The notes under the pieces: generated by a model
What the model was told of the DNA's origin: nothing
Databases searched by the model: none
What the model saw: the letters and a program-made list of their open reading frames with translations, nothing else
Origin: Thermovibrio sp.
GTDB taxonomy: Bacteria; Aquificota; Aquificia; Desulfurobacteriales; Desulfurobacteriaceae
Length of the DNA stretch: 43,540 nucleotides
Reading direction: 5' to 3'
Assembly: GCA_015490195.1 (NCBI GenBank)
Contig: WFYG01000017.1
Coordinates: 1-43,540, forward strand
Part shown: one piece after another, positions 33,245 through 43,540 of the stretch
How the letters are laid out: the number at the start of each line of letters is the position of its first letter
How positions within the stretch are numbered: the first letter of the stretch is position 1
Position numbers and translations under genes: made by a program

Positions 33245-33321
33245 CGCGGGGTAGAGCAGTCTGGTAGCTCGCCGGGCTCATAACCCGGAGGTCGCGGGTT
33301 CAAATCCCGCCCCCGCAACCA
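33245..33321 (+). tRNA. Initiator tRNA-fMet (anticodon CAT)
   Basis: 77 bases with encoded CCA. The first acceptor position is C opposed by A (CGCGGGG against CCCCGCA), the mismatch that marks initiator tRNA, and the anticodon stem has the three G-C pairs (CCGGG CTCATAA CCCGG). The recombinase gene on the other strand ends inside this tRNA, which is probably the attachment site of the element to the right. Confidence 0.96.
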
Positions 33322-34810
33322 ATCCTATTTTTCTATTGAAAGCACAAAGCGGGTTCTTAAACACAAACTCCACCCAGTAAGTTCCCTCTATTTCAGGGTC
33401 CTCAACAACCTTTATCTCTTTTAAAACTTTCTCAATAATACTTCTGCCCTCTCTAATGTCCATTGTCAGAACTCTATCCATCTGCTCTATCAGTAAATCA
33501 ATTACAGAATCGTCAATATCCACAAAATCAACGTCACTAATGGATGCAAGCTGCAGTCTTAACCTATCAATTTCCTCTTCATAGTCTCTTATCTGCTTTG
33601 CAACTGTTTTACTTGGAACATCATTGAACACCTCAAGTGCTTTCTCAAGTTTTTCTTCCAGTTTCTCTATGTCCCGTTTAATCTCTTCTGCCGTTCTTTT
33701 CGGAGAAAACTCCCTTTTCAGGAATTTCTCAAGTTCTTCTTTAAATTTGTACTTGTTTTCCTTGAGGTAAGACTTAATAGCATTAACGGCAAGTTTATTG
33801 AGCATACGCTCATTTATGAGAATACTGGCATCGCAGTAGCCGTTTATCACTCCAGAACACTTAAAAGAGGCTCTTGTAGCCTTAATGAAGTTGGAACCGC
33901 ACTTGGCACACTTGATAAATCCACCAAGAAGAGTTGTGTAACCTACTCCCTTACCTTTCCTCTGAACTCTACTCCTGCGTTCTCTTATTCTTTGACACTC
34001 TTCCCAGACTTCAGGATTTACAATCTGGAGATCTGGACGTTCTAACCTAACCCATTGCTCAGGAGGATTGGGAATCTTTTTTCTCTTAGAAAACCCTGGA
34101 ATTTTCTTATACTGAGCCTTGTTCCAGACAAACTCTCCCTTGTAAAGCTCATTGATAAGAATTTCTCTTACTGCATTATGAGTCCACCTTGTCCCCCTCG
34201 GAGCTGGAATACCTTCTCTGTTCAACAACTGAGTAATGTATTTGTAACCGTAACCCTGTCTGTAGAGTTCATAGATCCTCCTTACAACCTTAGCCTCTTT
34301 TTCATCTATCTTTAGTTCTCCGTCCTCAAGCCTGTAGCCGTAGCGGGGAGCCATTACAGCCTTCCCCGAAAGGAGACGACCGTAAAGCCCCCGCCAGGTA
34401 TTTTTACGAACGCTCTCTATATACTGCTCATCGGCTATACCATAGGCAGAAAAAAGTAGCTCAAAGTTTTCATTCTCCGTTGATATTCCCTGAGAAACAA
34501 ATATGATCTTTACTCCGTACAGATACACCAACTCCCTTGCCATAATTTTCAGCTCGGCAGTATCCCTGCTGATCCGACTCGTGTGATGAACCAGAAGATA
34601 TTCAATCCGGTTTTCCTTTATGTAATCAAGAAGAGCCTTGTACCCCGGACGGTCTGGACTGTAGCCAGACTCTTCTATGTCAAAGAAGACAGCAACAATA
34701 TCTATTCCTCTCTGTTCAGCCTCAACCTGGCAAATCAGAACCTGATCCTTTATGCTCTTCCTGTCCTGCTTCGGAGTTGAATACCTTGCGTAGATTACTC
34801 CTCTTTTCAT
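33278..34810 (-). CDS. Large serine recombinase (integrase of the element)
   Basis: 510 codons, AGGAGG before the ATG. The N-terminal resolvase domain has the catalytic Ser11 in IYARYSTPKQ and the Arg pair HTSRISRD (Arg79, Arg82). The recombinase domain follows (GYRLEDGELKIDEKEAKVV, cut at its core, and YKYITQLLNREGIPAPRG), then a zinc ribbon CAKCGSNF...KCSG...YCDAS and a long coiled coil (about residues 380-430). These are the parts of a large serine integrase. The last 11 residues, GAGFEPATSGL, are translated from the antisense strand of tRNA-fMet, so the gene runs into the host tRNA. Confidence 0.95.
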   Translation of the reverse strand: MKRGVIYARYSTPKQDRKSIKDQVLICQVEAEQRGIDIVAVFFDIEESGYSPDRPGYKALLDYIKENRIEYLLVHHTSRISRDTAELKIMARELVYLYGVKIIFVSQGISTENENFELLFSAYGIADEQYIESVRKNTWRGLYGRLLSGKAVMAPRYGYRLEDGELKIDEKEAKVVRRIYELYRQGYGYKYITQLLNREGIPAPRGTRWTHNAVREILINELYKGEFVWNKAQYKKIPGFSKRKKIPNPPEQWVRLERPDLQIVNPEVWEECQRIRERRSRVQRKGKGVGYTTLLGGFIKCAKCGSNFIKATRASFKCSGVINGYCDASILINERMLNKLAVNAIKSYLKENKYKFKEELEKFLKREFSPKRTAEEIKRDIEKLEEKLEKALEVFNDVPSKTVAKQIRDYEEEIDRLRLQLASISDVDFVDIDDSVIDLLIEQMDRVLTMDIREGRSIIEKVLKEIKVVEDPEIEGTYWVEFVFKNPLCAFNRKIGLVAGAGFEPATSGL

Positions 34811-34922
34811 AGTTCCTCCTGATAACTATTTTCTTACCAACCTTCTCTATTTCAACGTTACCGTCTCGTTCAAGAACACGCAAGTACTCAACACACAGTT
34901 TGGCGATAGCATGAATTAACAT
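34722..34922 (-). CDS. Small hypothetical protein between polyprotein and recombinase
   Basis: 66 codons. GGAGGGGGAACC stands directly before the ATG, and the start overlaps the polyprotein stop (ATGTTAA), so coupled translation is likely. The first 40 residues (MLIHAIAKLCVEYLRVLERD, then VEIEKVGKKIVIRRNYEK) could form a helix followed by a beta hairpin; the rest overlaps the recombinase start by 89 bp in another frame and is of low complexity. It may be a small regulator or excision factor, but no family is recognised. Confidence 0.5.
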   Translation of the reverse strand: MLIHAIAKLCVEYLRVLERDGNVEIEKVGKKIVIRRNYEKRSNLRKVFNSEAGQEEHKGSGSDLPG

Positions 34923-37900
34923 GGTTCCCCCTCCCTCTCTACATTTTCTCCGTCTACAACTTCAACCTCAACCGGAGTGGGGAACTCTCCGATAAGCTCT
35001 AAGGCAGATTCTTCCATAGCCCTTTTGAGGAGTTCTTTTGCTTTGGCTAAATGGTCAGCAGAGGTTTCAACGACTATTTCATCATGAATTAGGTTTATTA
35101 TTTGAGCATCAAGGTTTTCTTCCTTACAGAGAATCCTGAAACGAGCAGCAGCCAGCTTTAACAGATCTGCACCAGAACCTTGGACGGGAACATTCAAAGC
35201 TTTAGTTAACGTATCAACAGCTACAACTCTTCCGTAAAGGGTTGCGATCCTGACAATTCCACTTTTGGAAGACTTTAGTTCCTGCTCCGTTAATCTGTGC
35301 CAGTGAACTATCCCGGGATAAGCCTTAAAGAACTTGCGTCTGAATTCTTTCGCTTCTTCATCAGTTAATCTCACTCCGTAGTTGTGAAAGGCATATTTCT
35401 TAAACGTTTCTGCACTCATTCCGTAGAGAAATCCGAAGTTAACAGCCTTTGCTCTCTGTCTTTCTTCAGGAGTTATCTGATTTACAGGTTTTCCGGAAAT
35501 CAGAGAAGCAGTGAGCGTATGAAGATCCTCTCTTTTCTGAAAAGCCTGAATCATCCTCTTATCATGGGCTATCTTAGCTGCCAGACGAAATTCAATAGCC
35601 GGATAATCAGCTCTTATAATTACTCTTCCTTTAGGGGCTTTATAGAAGTTTTTCTTTAACTCCCGGGGAATCTGCTGGACATTGGGATCTCTTGCAGACA
35701 TTCTGCCGGAATGGGATTCCAACTGGCTAAATTCAGGATACAGTCTGCCTCCCTTTGTCTTAAGGAACTGCTCGGCATTAATAAGCTTCTTCAAATTCTT
35801 CAGCTTTAGAAGTTTGGCAACAACGGGATGTTCTCTGTATTTGCAAAGCTCAGCCTTACTAACCGACTCAACTTCCAGACCATAGCGTGATTTAAGAATT
35901 TTCAAAACTTTCTGAGCGCTCTGAGGATTAACTCCAAGCTCTCCTTTAAGCTCAGCATGCAGAGTTTTAAACTCTCTTTCAGCACGGGAAACTGTATCTT
36001 TAAGGAATTCTTCGTTTACCGGAATGCCTGCGAGTTCCATCTCCACTAAAATCGGAAGAAAACGACCCTCAAGCTGAGCAACAGGGTTGGTAAGACCCAA
36101 ACTATCAGGAATTTCTTGATGTTCAACAGACAGTGAATTCAACAGCTGTACCTGAATTCCAGCAATACCCGACAGTGCTTCAACTTTTCTGAGAACGTAG
36201 TCAATATGAGATGGTGTAAGGTCTCCGTTGAAATCAAACTCCGGTAAAACCTTGCTAAAAGAAGTCTTGGTATATTTCTTAGCAAGGCTATGAAAAGAAA
36301 GAGCTTTTTCAGTAGCTCTCTCTGGATTCCAGGAGTTCCACAGGAGCTTTTCAGCTAAGTAAACATCAAAAGTTTCATCAGGCAGAATCTCCCTACCGTA
36401 GTTAGAAGCTAAAGCCTTCAGAATATGCTTTAACTTATAGCCCACTATAAGTTTTCCAGGTATCAGGGCTATAACAGACCTTACAATATCATTTGATAAC
36501 TCCTGCACATCAAAAACGTAGAAATTATTACCGTCACCAATTGAAATGAGTCTTAGGAGAGAATCGGCAGACAGAACAACGTCTAAATACAATTTACGAG
36601 CATTCTTCAGGTAGCGTAGGATTCTTAAAGCGTGTTCATCTGAGATAACATAGTTTTTAGGAAAACCAAAAGACGTGGAATGTTGAGACTTGATGTTAGA
36701 CTCTAAAGAATGGCACATTCCACTTCTTAAGTCGTTAGAAACTAAAACCTTTTGCTGGGGCGTGGAATGTATGGATAGTTCATCTCCTGACTTCTCCCTC
36801 TCGTGCCTACCTGAAAAACTCCTATCGCTTATTCCCTCAACCTCAAGATTCTGAGACTGTAAGAAAGGATTCTCACAAACATTCAAACATTCCACGCTTG
36901 AGCTGGAACTATTGCTTTTTAGAGACTTGACGTGTGGAATGTTCTGACAGCTACACTCCTCAATATCCAGCCGATCATCCTCAGGATTATCGGATTCAAC
37001 CTTAGAGATCGTTCTGTAGTTTCCACTACTTTTTGCAGTTAAAGAGATGTTGTAGCCTAACTCCTTAAACAGAGGAACTGATTTGTTCAGACACTTCCCA
37101 AACTTCCGAGAGTTGGTCTTGAAAGAGTATCCCTTTTCCTTGGCAAAGTTTACAACCTCTTTTAACCACTCAGATGTTTTCTTAGTAATAGGAAGTTTAT
37201 CCTTAAACCGTTCCTCTATCAGGTAGTAGAAGAAAGGTAAGATAGGCTCTATCTGTTCCAGTGATTTAAGAATCAGTTTCTTACTTCCCCTGTTTATTGC
37301 CCTTATAACTTCCTTTTCTACTCCTACAGAACGGGAAATTGCTATAGCCCAGTAGCTCCAGGAAGACAACCTGTGAACAGGTCTGTATTCGTTTCTAACT
37401 GAAAGATATAGTTTTATAGCGTCTGAAATTACGTTAAATATGGCTGGTAGAATAAAAGGAATTTCTTTCTCAAAAGCTTTAGTTAAAGCAGTCTCCTCCA
37501 GCCTCTTATTTCTGTTAATCCTTTCAAGCTCTATAATCAGTGAACGGTCAAGCAGGTCAGGGGGAATTCTATTAAGATCTATGGCTGTAATGTCAAAAGT
37601 TCCTTTGAGTTGGACGATATCAAGGTCTCTATCTGTGTAGAGTCTTCTGGTTGATTCTGTGCCGCCAGTTATCGCTCTGCACAGGAAGTCAGACAACTCC
37701 TGGCTGACAGAGGAAAGGTTGTCCAACACTAAAAATACATTGGAGTCAAGCAGAGGACGGAGCTTGTTAACGATATTTCCATCACGATTTCTACTGTTTA
37801 TACTCTCCATAACAGAGGCTGTTGGGTCGTAGAGGAGCTTGTTAAGTAAACTCCTCTTTGTTTTCCCAGCCCCCTGCGGACCTATATAGATAGCAATAGG

Positions 37901-39397
37901 CTTGGAAATATCCGGAATAAACAGTGTAATCAGACGGACAACGTCCAGAATAAAAGCATCCTCATCTTTATAAACGGGAGCATATTTTAAAAATCGTTCT
38001 AAGACATCCCTACCTCTGTAGCTTTCATCTATTTTGGGTAAGTCTGTCTGGATAGGTACATACCTAAACCTGTTTACACTGGAGTGCGGTAAAACTCTGA
38101 ATCCGTGTTCATTTATTTCAACCACATAGAAACCTGCGTTGAAGTAAATAGATCTGTTTTCTTCTTTCCAGGCAACCCGTTTTGGTAAAGGTTTACCTTT
38201 TGGACTGTTAGAGTATTCCAGACGTAAGAGAGTGAGAAGTTTTTCCAGTTCATCCCTACTGAGGATTTCACCAATAGACTCGTAAACGAGTTTTTGCAGC
38301 TTATCCCGACCAAGGGAGCTCCTGAGTTCATAAAACCTGCCGTCGTAGAGGAGATAGTAATCATCATCGGTAACCTTATAAACTGTTACTTTATTGTGAA
38401 TTCTCTCCCAGGCGCGCCTGTAGCGGGGTATTTTCTCCTTATTCTTTTTCGCATACGGACAGTCTTCACTACAGACTGGAACTTCAACGCTTATCTCCTC
38501 ATTTTCTCCTTTGAGGATAGAACAACCAGCTACAGTTTCTTTGCTGTAAGTACTGCGTATAACGTGTTCTCTCAGGCTTAGCTCTTCATCGTTCCTTGCA
38601 CGGGCTATACTGAGGATAATTTTTAAAGCTTCATCTTCTGGCAGTTTCAGTAGGCTTTTACACACTCCGGCTAAACCGAAAGTGTAGTTGTTCCGGTAAC
38701 CCTCTTGCCAGTTCTCGTAGGCATTTAGGAAACAGGGAGGCAGGTCTTTGAGCTTATCTACAAACTCTAAAGTTCTGGTATTCTCTGCTGCGAAATCCTG
38801 ATAGTAGTCAGCCCAGTTTAGAAGAGGCTTTTCTAAACTATCCGGTTTTAAAATGGCATTGTGTAAGGTCTCCAGAAATTCAGGTGATATTTCGTTATTG
38901 TCTGTAAGTGACGAAAACAGCGGTAAAAACAGACATGTCTTTTTAGGCGGAAGAATCTCAATCTTACTCTTATAAGGATAAGAAGAAGACTGCCTTACCC
39001 TTTCTAACAGCCATATAACCGTTTTAGCATTAACCGGTTTACTAAAGGGTATCCAGATGTGATATCCCTTGCTCTTTGATTTCTCTATAAAAGGTTTAAA
39101 TCCTAACTCTCTGAGTTTACTGTAGATCTCATACGTGTATTTCTGCCTTTCCTCTTCTAGGAGCTCTCCTAAATCCAGATCAACTGCAGCAAAGATTACC
39201 TCATCACTGTTAACCCACGGAGAAACTCCTATGCGATGTTTCCCCTGCAGGTGCATAAGAATTTTCTCTTCTGGAGATTCCCTGAAAGCTTTACTCTTTT
39301 TGGTAATGATGTTCCCTGTTTGAGGATCTTGGACATTAACGCTCTTAGACCTTTCAAAGAGTTTTGAAAGAATATCTACAATAAGCTTAACATTCAT
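34916..39397 (-). CDS. Primase-helicase-DNA polymerase A polyprotein
   Basis: 1493 codons from the ATG at 39397, which has GGAGG seven bases upstream; in-frame starts at 39520 and 39613 would add 41 or 72 residues. Residue order: archaeo-eukaryotic primase (AVDLDLGE with Asp73/Asp75, SKGYHIWIPF with His113, KIEILPPKK with Glu147); four Cys (222, 292, 309, 313) suited to a metal or Fe-S site as in PriL-like domains; ATPase with Walker A GPQGAGKT (506-513) and Walker B FLVLDN (Asp559); a Ser-rich linker (about 790-905); a 3'-5' exonuclease-like domain lacking its acidic residues; PolA with motif A RADYPAIEFR (Asp1264), motif B RQRAKAVNFGFLYG and motif C HDE (1438-1440). Aquificae viruses of the pyrovirus type encode comparable roughly 1600-residue polyproteins. 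It should prime, unwind and copy the element. Confidence 0.9.
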   Translation of the reverse strand: MNVKLIVDILSKLFERSKSVNVQDPQTGNIITKKSKAFRESPEEKILMHLQGKHRIGVSPWVNSDEVIFAAVDLDLGELLEEERQKYTYEIYSKLRELGFKPFIEKSKSKGYHIWIPFSKPVNAKTVIWLLERVRQSSSYPYKSKIEILPPKKTCLFLPLFSSLTDNNEISPEFLETLHNAILKPDSLEKPLLNWADYYQDFAAENTRTLEFVDKLKDLPPCFLNAYENWQEGYRNNYTFGLAGVCKSLLKLPEDEALKIILSIARARNDEELSLREHVIRSTYSKETVAGCSILKGENEEISVEVPVCSEDCPYAKKNKEKIPRYRRAWERIHNKVTVYKVTDDDYYLLYDGRFYELRSSLGRDKLQKLVYESIGEILSRDELEKLLTLLRLEYSNSPKGKPLPKRVAWKEENRSIYFNAGFYVVEINEHGFRVLPHSSVNRFRYVPIQTDLPKIDESYRGRDVLERFLKYAPVYKDEDAFILDVVRLITLFIPDISKPIAIYIGPQGAGKTKRSLLNKLLYDPTASVMESINSRNRDGNIVNKLRPLLDSNVFLVLDNLSSVSQELSDFLCRAITGGTESTRRLYTDRDLDIVQLKGTFDITAIDLNRIPPDLLDRSLIIELERINRNKRLEETALTKAFEKEIPFILPAIFNVISDAIKLYLSVRNEYRPVHRLSSWSYWAIAISRSVGVEKEVIRAINRGSKKLILKSLEQIEPILPFFYYLIEERFKDKLPITKKTSEWLKEVVNFAKEKGYSFKTNSRKFGKCLNKSVPLFKELGYNISLTAKSSGNYRTISKVESDNPEDDRLDIEECSCQNIPHVKSLKSNSSSSSVECLNVCENPFLQSQNLEVEGISDRSFSGRHEREKSGDELSIHSTPQQKVLVSNDLRSGMCHSLESNIKSQHSTSFGFPKNYVISDEHALRILRYLKNARKLYLDVVLSADSLLRLISIGDGNNFYVFDVQELSNDIVRSVIALIPGKLIVGYKLKHILKALASNYGREILPDETFDVYLAEKLLWNSWNPERATEKALSFHSLAKKYTKTSFSKVLPEFDFNGDLTPSHIDYVLRKVEALSGIAGIQVQLLNSLSVEHQEIPDSLGLTNPVAQLEGRFLPILVEMELAGIPVNEEFLKDTVSRAEREFKTLHAELKGELGVNPQSAQKVLKILKSRYGLEVESVSKAELCKYREHPVVAKLLKLKNLKKLINAEQFLKTKGGRLYPEFSQLESHSGRMSARDPNVQQIPRELKKNFYKAPKGRVIIRADYPAIEFRLAAKIAHDKRMIQAFQKREDLHTLTASLISGKPVNQITPEERQRAKAVNFGFLYGMSAETFKKYAFHNYGVRLTDEEAKEFRRKFFKAYPGIVHWHRLTEQELKSSKSGIVRIATLYGRVVAVDTLTKALNVPVQGSGADLLKLAAARFRILCKEENLDAQIINLIHDEIVVETSADHLAKAKELLKRAMEESALELIGEFPTPVEVEVVDGENVEREGEPC
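36675..36942. repeat. Five iterons GTGGAATGT inside the polyprotein gene
   Basis: The nine-base word occurs at 36675 and 36762 and 36934 (plus orientation) and as ACATTCCAC at 36715 and 36887. Two inverted pairs, 36715/36762 and 36887/36934, have the same 38-base gap. A second nine-mer, GAGACTTGA, is repeated at 36685 and 36922. On the coding strand the copies read in different frames (HST, HST, PH, GMC, VEC), so the conservation is in the DNA, not the protein. They coincide with the Ser-rich linker. They may be binding sites for a replication initiator or regulator of the element. Confidence 0.75.
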
Positions 39398-39989
39398 ATT
39401 ACTTCCTCCTTTTAGGAATTCAGATTTAGAAATGGCTTGGCGCTCCTTATCTCTGCTGAAATGTTCGGAGTTGAAAGGCTTATCCTGCTGTTTAAACCTT
39501 TTTGTGTTATCTTTATTCATGGTAAATACCTCGCAATATGGTTTGGTGTCTTGTTTTTCCTGGGAGCTCCTGAGAGGAGCTCCTCCTTTTTTAATTGCTG
39601 AGAAACTCCTCAAGCTCAGGGAAATCCCAGCAACGTGGTAAAAATTTTCTTACTCATTTCACACCTCTTGTAAAAACTTTTCATCTCCAATTTGCAATTA
39701 GCTCTTCAATACAACTGATTCCAATCAACATTTATCTCATCTCCATCTGTCTCATCTTCTCTACACTTAATTATAGGTATCAAAACCCTTCCCGTATGGG
39801 AAAAGCAAGGGGGAATATCCATATAAAATTTCCTAAATAATTATCAAAGTGGAACCTAAAGATAGATTTTTACTAACTCAGCTCTCTATTTTTTGATGTC
39901 AAGAGATATGAATTAAGCTTAATAGCAATAAGTTTCTTTTAGAAAAGTTTCTTTTAGAAAAATTCCGCGTGAAAGTTTGTTCCTTTTAA
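39398..39989. other. Upstream region of the polyprotein gene
   Basis: If the polyprotein starts at 39397 this stretch is about 590 bases without a gene, although the frame stays open to 39613. It holds two GGAGCTCC palindromes (39563, 39576), a TTCCC/GGGAA hairpin around GTAT near 39790, and a 15-bp tandem repeat at 39930-39959. It is AT-rich above 39650. The promoter of the polyprotein must lie here but no convincing -35/-10 pair was picked. Confidence 0.5.
39930..39959. repeat. Two tandem copies of a 15-bp unit
   Basis: AAGTTTCTTTTAGAA occurs twice head to tail with no mismatch. Each unit also contains the inverted repeat TTTCT/AGAAA around TTT, so the site has both direct and mirror symmetry, as in operators or iterons. 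Confidence 0.7.
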
Positions 39990-40325
39990 AGGGGTATCAA
40001 AGCTATAAAAAAGTGGGAATCAAAGTATCCCAATCCCAGGGTTGTGAAATACCGGGAACGGGAACTTCATAAGCTTCTTACGTTTCTCAAGTATCTTGAG
40101 CCTATTCAGAGGGTGGTATACACAACGAACCTGATAGAGAGGACGATAAAGGAAATAAGGAGGAGGGTTAAGGTCATAGGATCATTGCCCTCTGTTAGTT
40201 CTGTTGAGAAGTTTGTTTATTTAAGAGTAGCGATGCTTAATGTTAGATGGTCTAACAGGGTGGTGAACGGCTTTTTAGAAGCCAGGGAGGAGATTCAGGA
40301 AATGTTCTCCAGGAGGTACTCCTGA
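39990..40325 (+). pseudogene. IS256-family transposase, C-terminal fragment 1
   Basis: The frame is open from 39990 to the TGA at 40325 and reads AIKKWESKYPNPRVVKYRE, then VVYTTNLIERTIKEIRRRVKV and FVYLRVAML, which are the C-terminal motifs of Mutator/IS256 transposases (the TTNxIE...IRRR.K segment). About three quarters of the gene, including the first two catalytic acidic residues, is missing on the left. An IS end follows four bases later. It is not functional. Confidence 0.85.
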
Positions 40326-40328
40326 TGG

Positions 40329-40353
40329 CTTACACAAAATTATTGACACAACC
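40329..40353 (+). repeat. IS256-type terminal repeat A
   Basis: CTTACACAAAATTATTGACA followed by CAACC, right after transposase fragment 1. The same 20 bases recur at 40541, and such ACACAAAATT..TTGACAC ends are typical of IS256-family elements. Confidence 0.7.
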
Positions 40354-40510
40354 CGGCAAGAGGGTATTTCCCAACGACCAGGCACTTTTAAAGAGTCTGT
40401 ATTTGGCTGTGATGGAACTTGAGAAGAAGTGGAGCAGAAGTGCTGTAAGAGACTGGGGTATTATTTACGGTCAGCTTTCTGAAATTTTTGGGGAGAGACT
40501 TGAGGTATGA
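40354..40510 (+). pseudogene. IS256-family transposase, C-terminal fragment 2
   Basis: In frame from the end of repeat A: KRVFPNDQALLKSLYLAVME, then KKWSRSAVRDWG and QLSEIFGERLEV up to the stop. This is the extreme C-terminus of a second, different IS256 transposase. The ATG at 40325 belongs to the inserted IS end and is not its original start. It shows that the first IS inserted into the second. Confidence 0.8.
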
Positions 40511-40515
40511 TAGAA

Positions 40516-40566
40516 TTTACACAGTTCTATGGACACTCCCCTTACACAAAATTATTGACATAACCC
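40516..40566 (+). repeat. IS ends B and C, abutting
   Basis: B (40516-40540) reads TTTACACAGTTCTATGGACA plus CTCCC and follows fragment 2 directly, so it is that element's right end. C (40541-40566) repeats the first 20 bases of end A and continues TAACCCC. No transposase lies between B and C. Confidence 0.65.
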
Positions 40567-40622
40567 CTTCTAATCTATGGTTTGATATTTTTACACTCTT
40601 GGGTGGACATTCCCCTCCCGGA

Positions 40623-40644
40623 TTTACAAAGTTTTATGGACATT
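40623..40644 (+). repeat. IS end D, fused to the end of the next gene
   Basis: TTTACAAAGTTTTATGGACA plus TT resembles end B with few changes. The opposing long gene stops inside it at 40624, so its last eight codons come from this repeat. Confidence 0.55.
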
Positions 40645-43540
40645 ATTATATTTTTTATAGATTTCAAAAAGGAAATTCTCGTTTCCATACTGACTAAACA
40701 TAATTCCATATAAATTGCATATCATATTAGCGGTTTCTTTCTCTCCTTTCTCATATAGAGTTTCCACCAGTTTCTGAACATCTTCTTTTTTATAGGTGAA
40801 ATAAATCCCCTTCTTGGTAAGATATAGAAATATAGAGGCTATTTCCTTTGGATTTCCTTTAACTTTACCAAGCATGTACTCGAGAATCTCTAAAGGAGGG
40901 AATGCCTTGCTAGAATCATTAAAATGTTTAATAGAAATTTTGAGCCACTCAAGAATTTCTTTATCTATCCTGTTTATTAGAAATACTACATTTGATAGCT
41001 TAGCCAAAAGCTTTTGATATTCTAATTCTTGTTCTCTTTTGATAGCTATATCGTATAGTCTTCTCAGAAGAAGTTTCACTTTATCTGCAATGTTGGCAAT
41101 GTTTTCTCTTCTCCTGCTTAACAAAGAAAAGTAATTCACAATAGCATTTAGCTGTTCAACATTACTTTTTTCTATAAGCCTGTAAATAAGGCTGTTTTTA
41201 TCCTCTAAGCTTTCCCATCCCTGTAAATACGCAATACATATATGTTGAACAAGCTGCTCCGTAAATGATGAGTCAAAAGGAACGGTTGTTAAAGCTCTCT
41301 CATAGTGTCCACTTTCTTTGAGTAGGGTATAAATACTTTTATATATTACGCGCGCAAAGAAGAGATAACTCGTAAAAGCTCCTTTCCAGTGTTGTTCGTT
41401 ATCTTCTGGAAAAATCTTGTTAATGTTTTCTATTACCCAATTTTTGTCAATTCTGTATAAATCTACCAGTCGCTCACCAAGAACAACAGAAAACTCAAGA
41501 GATGGCTCAACTTTCCGGTTTAATCTTCTTGAAATTTCTTCTTTTATTGTTTGTAACCACTTAGTCCTGCTTTCCTTCATACATCTTAGAGAATAGTCAA
41601 TTGCTGCAGAAACAACTTTACCTTTCGGAGAGTTCAAGACAGCAGTGATTAAATCCTCTTCGCTTTCCAATACTGATTCTGTATTTTCTATAAGGATTGA
41701 TAGAATTTTCTCAATCTTTGTTGAAAGTTCTTTTGTCAAAGAAAAGTTTTCTCTCTTACTAACATTTTCAACAATTTCTGCTATCCTTGAAATAATCCAA
41801 CTTTTATAATTAATAATTGGTCTGCTTTTTTCTCTCCAAAAATCTTTGCTATCAAGTAAGTTTTCTATAAAGTTAAAAACTTCCACCCAATCAATATCGT
41901 AACCTGACTCCCATGCTTCCAAAAATCCCCATAAAAGTGCGTGCTGATAAAGTGATGGTATATTTAAAAACATCTCTAATTCAGATATAAATTTTTTAGG
42001 ATTTGATGCAACACTATCTCTAAAGATGTCTGCAAGATCTTCTCTATCTATTGCTCTCAAGTTTCCTTTATAATCTATAAGAAACTGTGCGATTTCCTTA
42101 TTACTTTTTTCTAAGAATTTCGCATATAATCGTTTTCGTTCTTTGGAATCTCTTATTTTTCCTTTCTCCATCCAGAATAAAAATCCCGGATGCTTAATCT
42201 CATAGGGATATAGTTGATTGTATTTCTCATACAAAGACTTTACCTTCGGATTATCAAGAAGGAGAAATGCAGTTAACCATTCTTTTCTTTGAGAAGCAAT
42301 CATTTGCTCAATCTGTTCTTCTGTGTATTTTCCATTCAAATTTTCCTTGTCAATAGATAATTCTTCTATCCAGCTTATAATTCTATTTATCTGCTTTTCA
42401 TTAAACTCTTCAACGCGATTTTTAAATAATTCATAAAGTTCATGTTTTAAAAAATCCTGCTTTAAAAGATTCTCTCCTGATTGCCAGAAAAGTTCACTTA
42501 AAGCATGATAGTGATAATTAATCGTATGAATGGCTATCCTCTTGAATATAGAATGTTCTTCTTTTAGAAGGTTTTCTACTTCACTTTTTATTTCTCCAGG
42601 TGAAAGCATTTCAAAAACATTTCTGACAAAGTGAACTAATTGGCATTCGTACCTATCTGAAAAAATTTCAGTTTGAGGATGGTCTTCTATTGTAGGAATC
42701 CATATAACATTAAATTGTTTTGCATCCTCAGACACTATAGTTTTTATTTTCTCTATAGCAACTTTAGCGGCTTCAATACCACAAAGTTTTGCTATATCTT
42801 TTGCGTGCTTTTCTAATGCCTTCTGAAGCCAGTACTCATCCATAATAGGAAAATATTCAATCCTCCTTCCCTCATCCCAAATGGAGATTGTTTCTTCTTT
42901 TTTATAATCAAAAATAATTTCTATCAGTTGTAAGACATGTTCTACCGCTTTTTTATTAATCAATTTTGGCAAGATAGTTTCACTTACTTCAGATGATACT
43001 AAATTATTTTGTTTTAATGCTTCTTTCAGAAATTGAAAATGAGCTTCAGTTATTTTTTTGACAGGAAGAGAAAATATTATTTGTAATAAATACCAATGTA
43101 GCAAATGCTGATTTATATGCTTCCTTACTTCTTTCTCATCATTTAATAAGAATTTGCCTATTGAATCAACTATTTCAACAAGAGCATTCGTTATCTCCTC
43201 TGAAGGATTCTCATTATTCTTATCAGCAACTGTTTTTAAGTATTCAAATACAACTGGTTCAAATGAAAAATACTTTTGTAGGTCAAAGAATCCTTTTTCT
43301 TTTAGGCGTCTGAACCAGAGAATCGAGTTAGAAGCCTGAGATAGTTTTTTGAAGAAGAGGTTTCTATATGTTGAATCATTTTTAATTGTTTGGAAAATCC
43401 GAAGAATCTCAGCTTCTTCTAAATTATCTTTTTTTACAAGTTTTTCTACTTCATGATTTATAGAGTAAAGTTCTGCAGAACGAACTTTCACTTGAGTACA
43501 CCAATCTTTAATCACATAGTAAAGCTGATCATAACCTTTT
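40624..43540 (-). CDS. Large helical-repeat protein, partial, function unknown (possible defence ATPase C-terminal part)
   Basis: At least 971 codons. A GTG at 43515 would give 963 residues, but it has no ribosome site and the frame stays open to the window edge (GYDQLYYV before it), so the true start is probably outside. The visible part is helix-rich with many Trp and charged residues and no nucleotide-binding or nuclease motif. The segment VLNSPKGKVVSAAIDYSL, then LGERLVDLYRIDKNWV and FPEDNEQHWKGAFTSYLFFA, recalls the C-terminal helical regions (DUF4020-like) of large STAND-type or SIR2-linked defence proteins; this is by eye only. It is much more AT-rich than the core genes. Its last residues (NVHKTL) derive from IS end D. 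Confidence 0.6.
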   Translation of the reverse strand, partial: KGYDQLYYVIKDWCTQVKVRSAELYSINHEVEKLVKKDNLEEAEILRIFQTIKNDSTYRNLFFKKLSQASNSILWFRRLKEKGFFDLQKYFSFEPVVFEYLKTVADKNNENPSEEITNALVEIVDSIGKFLLNDEKEVRKHINQHLLHWYLLQIIFSLPVKKITEAHFQFLKEALKQNNLVSSEVSETILPKLINKKAVEHVLQLIEIIFDYKKEETISIWDEGRRIEYFPIMDEYWLQKALEKHAKDIAKLCGIEAAKVAIEKIKTIVSEDAKQFNVIWIPTIEDHPQTEIFSDRYECQLVHFVRNVFEMLSPGEIKSEVENLLKEEHSIFKRIAIHTINYHYHALSELFWQSGENLLKQDFLKHELYELFKNRVEEFNEKQINRIISWIEELSIDKENLNGKYTEEQIEQMIASQRKEWLTAFLLLDNPKVKSLYEKYNQLYPYEIKHPGFLFWMEKGKIRDSKERKRLYAKFLEKSNKEIAQFLIDYKGNLRAIDREDLADIFRDSVASNPKKFISELEMFLNIPSLYQHALLWGFLEAWESGYDIDWVEVFNFIENLLDSKDFWREKSRPIINYKSWIISRIAEIVENVSKRENFSLTKELSTKIEKILSILIENTESVLESEEDLITAVLNSPKGKVVSAAIDYSLRCMKESRTKWLQTIKEEISRRLNRKVEPSLEFSVVLGERLVDLYRIDKNWVIENINKIFPEDNEQHWKGAFTSYLFFARVIYKSIYTLLKESGHYERALTTVPFDSSFTEQLVQHICIAYLQGWESLEDKNSLIYRLIEKSNVEQLNAIVNYFSLLSRRRENIANIADKVKLLLRRLYDIAIKREQELEYQKLLAKLSNVVFLINRIDKEILEWLKISIKHFNDSSKAFPPLEILEYMLGKVKGNPKEIASIFLYLTKKGIYFTYKKEDVQKLVETLYEKGEKETANMICNLYGIMFSQYGNENFLFEIYKKYNNVHKTL

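Follow-up and report, generated by a model that had tools for sequence, protein, structure and literature searches.

A probable DSR1-like antiphage protein cut by a contig end in Thermovibrio, and the effectors joined to relatives of its presumed helical sensor

The window analysed here, a stretch of 43,540 nucleotides, makes up the entire contig C17, one of 46 in a Thermovibrio genome of 1.68 Mb. The 971-codon reading frame at its end very probably belongs to a DSR1-like antiphage system of one gene, and encodes all but the N-terminal fifth of a protein of about 1,240 residues, which would consist of an N-terminal SIR2 NADase and a helical solenoid of about 930 residues (Table 1). The frame is real, as a preliminary description of the window had stated, and it is interrupted solely by the contig end, on its 5′ side. 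Our reading is based on homology, on the end helix of a SIR2 domain, on the expected SIR2 motifs in relatives and on a predicted helical fold; an antiphage role and NAD+ hydrolysis would follow for the window protein. The gene is an ordinary addition to an already known type of defence, and the apparent modular use of its sensor is more interesting than the gene itself.

Table 1. Coordinates of the frame at the contig end, its parts and the neighbouring IS-like features.
Feature	Position	Strand	Evidence
C-terminal remnant of a Mutator-family transposase	40044..40325 (match 40044-40322)	+	PF00872 positions 312-376 of 379, E=1.6e-10
Second, similar IS-like end, same orientation	40515..40535	-	21-mer copy
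IS-like end, source of the stop codon and of the five codons before it (VHKTL)	40622..40642	-	21-mer, one of two genome copies
DSR1-like protein without about the first 266 residues	40624..43539 (stop at 40624)	-	971-codon frame open at the 5′ side; PADLOC PDLC04166 match
All-helical solenoid, presumed phage sensor, residues 36-966	40642..43434	-	AlphaFold2 model, helical-repeat matches, alignment A5
Last helix of the SIR2 NADase domain, residues 1-20, motif GYxQLYxVxxxW	43480..43539	-	Alignment A7, split systems, L042 model

The PADLOC Dsr1 model PDLC04166 matches the frame with an E-value of 1.3e-265, residues 1–965 corresponding to profile positions 267–1225 of 1227, and the sensor region is colinear with the profile. 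No Pfam family scored above its cut-off. The NCBIfam equivalog for Dsr1, NF041818, gave 51.3 bits (E=4.1e-14; residues 271–743 against profile positions 609–1070), below its curated cut-off of 1400 bits, though a fragment alone could not decide the matter. Two intact relatives also fall far short of that value, L035 with 51.4 bits (mostly from the SIR2 part) and L042 with no match, and we therefore call the group DSR1-like rather than DSR1. The preliminary description had likened parts of the frame to C-terminal sensor regions of STAND or SIR2-associated defence proteins and had placed the effector outside the window; for SIR2 and for the position of the effector, both the Dsr1 match and the SIR2 end helix bear this out.

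On the Vibrio coralliilyticus plasmid pOCN014, adjacent genes encode a SIR2 protein of 306 residues, equivalent to PDLC04166 positions 5–301, and a protein of 942 residues, equivalent to positions 311–1213. Since the window frame begins at profile position 267, it starts within the SIR2 part. In fused relatives the counterpart of its opening residues, KGYDQLYYVIKDW, is the terminal stretch of SIR2, and seven positions of the end-helix motif (G, Y, Q, L, Y, V and W) are invariant in 9/9 rows of alignment A7, rows that were partly chosen by a pattern lying in this motif itself. In Methanoflexus (L045) and Vibrio, the two split systems compared, this stretch belongs to the stand-alone SIR2 polypeptide: the first 45 residues of the frame, compared with these SIR2 proteins, beat 2000 of 2000 shuffles for the former and 1996 of 2000 for the latter. 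The motif is looser in Vibrio and in genome G145, and the stretch is less clear in the SIR2 proteins of genomes G376 and G392 (scores of 27 and 26). An AlphaFold2 model of residues 1–400 of the relative L042 (mean pLDDT 82.9, pTM 0.65) places the stretch in a helix at residues 271–288. The SIR2 part of this model aligns with ThsA, KomC and DSR2 at Z 20–21 over about 250–260 residues, with an rmsd of 3.3–3.8, and in the DSR2 rows with Z ≥20 the alignment reaches residue 284 or further, so that it covers the end helix. Because the end helix is present and profile positions 5–301 match SIR2, the missing 266 or so codons most likely encode a SIR2 NADase. SIR2 alone fills positions 1–266 in the SIR2-bearing relatives, and there is therefore no space for an ATPase.

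Scanning genome contigs with alignment A3 yielded nine loci among 137 pattern-matching stretches, from Anammoxibacter, a Thermoplasmatales archaeon, Verrucomicrobia, Atribacteria, Methanoflexus, Methanophagales, a Clostridia MAG (the G250 contig), Desulfurellales and Clostridium ganghwense. SIR2 sequence lies upstream in all nine, fused in frame in seven (two of which, L044 and L048, run off their contigs within the sensor), split in L045 and present as a broken N-terminal remnant in L046; one of the two search patterns was located in the SIR2 end helix, which biases this set towards SIR2. The nearest relatives are 48–52% identical to the window protein, and in L035, L042 and L041 SIR2 and sensor form a single protein, 1,230–1,238 residues long when counted from the chosen ATG. 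The motifs GAGxS, TTNxD and [IL]HG occur in 10/10 aligned SIR2 rows of relatives.

At the other end of the frame, the earlier suggestion of a tail captured by an IS end holds in part: the stop and the last codons do lie inside an IS-like 21-mer, but this supplies five residues (VHKTL) rather than eight codons, in addition to the stop and to the third base of the codon ahead of VHKTL. With up to two mismatches the 21-mer has exactly two copies in the genome, 107 bases apart, and none in the five other genomes of the genus. No complete IS element was seen for these two copies, which may be IS ends, and a search at E≤0.001 found the region 39980–40680 nowhere else in the genome. The proteins of relatives stop at the sequence YNN or a few residues from it (YQEYNN in L041, against YKKYNN-VHKTL in the window protein). 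As nothing beyond VHKTL and the stop comes from the IS-like end and relatives stop at nearly the same place, the tail is essentially complete; the truncation that had been suspected there would have removed almost nothing. Probably an insertion event supplied the present stop, without evident cost.

The IS-like debris at this 3′ end is one of two observations that speak for a relic, that is, a gene whose 5′ part is truly lost rather than just unassembled. The other is that the genome, although its completeness is rated at 99.81%, did not yield the missing part: the SIR2 of the window copy did not turn up in the assembly in searches with the PADLOC model, with Pfam SIR2_2 and with the SIR2 of the closest complete relative (this third search had no positive control), and the 19 bases that close the contig have no other occurrence in the genome. 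We nevertheless consider a relic unlikely, given 971 codons without a stop, conserved blocks that have been kept and a complete C-terminus, whilst a gap in a 46-contig assembly accounts for a break exactly at the contig end. A DSR1-like gene that continues beyond that gap remains our preferred reading.

The frame is AT-rich, as had been noted, with a GC content of 0.313 (GC3 0.259) compared to 0.463–0.479 in four core genes of the same window, named from their translations as gltB-like, purH-like, molybdopterin-oxidoreductase-like and rho-like; the neighbouring polymerase and recombinase genes are at 0.41–0.42. For L035, among the closest complete relatives, the gene has a GC content of 0.312 and its locus 0.442; the loci surrounding L041, L042, L047 and L049 are AT-rich too. 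Since the frame lies far below the core genes, and the L035 gene likewise below its locus, the low GC content travels with the gene, which would fit a mobile defence gene. PDLC04166 matches one of six genomes of the genus and two of 136 in the phylum, these two being the window's own and G054, where part of the sensor alone is matched. The frame would add a defence gene of the DSR1-like NADase type to a lineage in which few genomes have one.

Two neighbouring genes were noted in their own right. At 33245–34810 a large serine recombinase (PF00239 and PF07508) overlaps tRNA-Met at the end of a cluster of three tRNAs, in what looks like an integration site. On the minus strand at 34916–39613, a 1565-codon frame combines a primase-like N-terminal part (PF22548) with a family A DNA polymerase at its C-terminal end (PF00476), and resembles in size and layout the Aquificae virus PolA polyprotein of 1,606 residues, as far as the accessible part of its description goes (PMC7689252). 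Phage records gave partial matches to this frame, none covering 80% of it.

The sensor was described earlier as helical, and AlphaFold2 run on alignment A5 (10 rows) indeed gives a model composed almost entirely of helices (mean pLDDT 82.8, pTM 0.51). The best matches in two structure searches were CAND1, importins and the PP2A scaffold, which would reflect the common helical-repeat arrangement alone. DSR2 was absent among the best 50 structural matches listed in either search, which excludes nothing. By sequence, an hmmsearch of PDB sequences with the A5 profile returned no DSR2 chain at E≤10, and the window protein as query matched no solved structure; the sole A5 match in PDB sequences, Vang-like protein 2 (E=0.0024), was taken as chance. 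Searches with the window protein alone against genome contigs and viral contigs, and with alignment A3 against viral contigs, produced nothing useful, and tblastn against phages found no match. The solenoid is presumed to be a phage sensor.

Relatives of this sensor are found behind different effectors. PDLC04166 matched 17 of 391 genomes; five of these (G186, G221, G313, G336 and G372) match in the SIR2 part only and were not counted as sensor relatives, leaving 12 sensor-bearing genomes that include the window's own. SIR2 is fused to the sensor in G145 (cut by a contig end), G250 and G276. G376 has a TIR-sensor fusion adjoining a separate SIR2 gene, a pairing seen again in G392, which was found in a later search, and a PIN domain is fused to the sensor in G383. 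The N-terminus in front of the sensor has no assigned domain in G375, nor in G054, which has part of the sensor only; G387 is cut by a contig end. Immediately upstream of the sensor in G179, G305 and G373 lies a small frame without an assigned domain.

Several of these loci deserve a separate description. At L030:5746-10222 and L056:1494-5997, in two genera of one family, a SIR2 gene is followed by a TIR-sensor fusion gene, and such pairs are possibly an unnamed two-gene NAD+ defence system. At L036:5647-9339 (minus strand) a PIN_12 domain (E=4.7e-22) is fused to the same kind of sensor. The small frames upstream of sensor genes, of 238–273 codons, lie at L031:5218-5934, L032:5434-6195 and L033:8337-9158 (minus strand); identity to the L031 frame is 38% for L033 and 22% for L032. 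None has a Pfam match at E≤0.01, and the sole PADLOC match is a weak one for L032 (Aga_Nuclease, E=0.00052). A HEPN-like reading of the small frames in G179, G305 and G373 and of the L029 N-terminus found no support in Pfam or PADLOC, and BLASTP detected no relation between L029 and L031. The G054 N-terminus had appeared nuclease-like by eye alone, and profile searches gave no such match.

More distant relatives lie on haloarchaeal plasmids. From eight haloarchaeal records, four plasmid proteins were examined: ahead of the sensor, L007 and L060 carry AAA_16 above the Pfam cut-off, and L006 and L008 show weak NTPase matches under it, L006 with a weak Avs4 match as well. The A5 profile matches 25/25 sensor rows tested, some of which were used to build it; the weakest, a Streptomyces plasmid protein, scores 48.7 bits, compared to a maximum of 3.2 bits for reversed sequences. 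Searches of further phyla fell on small ones, yielding 3 matches from 7 genomes, 2 from 3 and 1 from 3, so effector counts are anecdotal.

We placed 22 of these 25 sensors in a tree, omitting three truncated rows (L044, L048 and L012) and letting L047 also represent G250. The clade of the window protein has seven rows (SH-aLRT 100), the other six being four in which SIR2 is fused, one in which it is split, and L029, the N-terminus of which has no assigned domain; four STAND-labelled rows form a separate clade (SH-aLRT 100). The tree was made by a quick method; 14 of 22 rows carried a warning on sequence composition, the placement of five long branches is unsure, and its 'HEPN' label is our own, with no library behind it. 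As L029 has a different N-terminus within the same clade, effector exchange has probably taken place near the window protein's branch. Together with the fusion of sensors of this family to TIR, PIN or AAA/STAND elsewhere, L029 also lends some colour to the idea that another effector lies upstream of the window sensor. Such a swap is nonetheless very improbable, as the frame already holds the SIR2 end helix, which L029 does not show, its match starting at A5 position 28. Least credible of all is the C-terminal part of a STAND/Avs protein with its ATPase upstream: the distant relatives on haloarchaeal plasmids do bear AAA/STAND-like NTPases, but no Avs or NTPase match is listed for the frame, the STAND rows group apart and the SIR2 helix is present. 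The Avs, DUF4020 and ATPase elements of the preliminary description accordingly fall away, with no Avs family among the PADLOC matches listed at E≤1, neither DUF4020 nor a P-loop among the Pfam matches listed at E≤1, and SIR2 directly before the sensor in SIR2-bearing relatives; an upstream ATPase is not expected.

With an N-terminal SIR2 NADase still preferred for the window protein itself, the same sensor, found elsewhere with PIN, with AAA/STAND or with TIR next to a SIR2 gene of its own, behaves like a portable module. We lean, by a modest margin and from a small, unsystematic sample, towards regarding the helical region of about 930 residues as a portable sensor module that would define a superfamily of defence proteins of bacteria and archaea, joined to several killing mechanisms: SIR2, fused or split; TIR alongside a distinct SIR2 gene; a PIN nuclease; AAA/STAND NTPases; and small partners with no assigned domain. 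Should all of these sensors respond to a single phage feature, the window protein would be just one of many interchangeable arrangements, and TIR and SIR2 together would form an NAD+ system of two enzymes, outside the families searched here. The range of effectors among the sensor relatives makes the question of what the sensor detects testable in laboratory strains. Our literature search, in sources seen in part, found no earlier account of this modular use, which does not prove its absence.

Most likely the target of the solenoid is a protein that the phage produces as it infects the cell. Binding would open the SIR2 pocket, the open pocket would hydrolyse NAD+, and the loss of NAD+ would halt phage production. 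The available portions of two reports describe DSR2 as a tetramer in which SIR2 is activated once the C-terminal domain has bound the tail tube protein of a phage (PMC10973363, PMC10981675), and according to a review, available likewise in part, the cell does not die when DSR1 inhibits phage replication (PMC10952713). By analogy, the principle of DSR2 may be carried over to the window protein, its trigger not. We infer that the window copy has an intact SIR2 domain, is expressed, has NADase activity and responds to a phage protein.

In conclusion, the closest known counterparts of the window protein include the PADLOC Dsr1 model, which it matches colinearly over the full frame and whose full-length matches combine SIR2 with a long helical C-terminus; the difference is that the SIR2 part of the window protein would lie beyond the contig end. 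NF041818 matches the sensor weakly, and the window protein and its relatives thus appear as a diverged DSR1-like group. The pairs of Vibrio coralliilyticus pOCN014 and Candidatus Methanoflexus have the same kinds of SIR2 and sensor in adjacent genes, but as two polypeptides rather than one. DSR2 of Bacillus, an NADase activated by a tail tube protein according to the accessible parts of the reports cited above (PMC10981675, PMC10973363), would share an N-terminal SIR2 domain, with which the L042 model aligns at Z 20.6 over 252 residues with an rmsd of 3.4, and a mostly helical C-terminal sensor. The window-type sensor differs from it in showing no detectable sequence relation when the A5 profile is compared with PDB sequences at E≤10.
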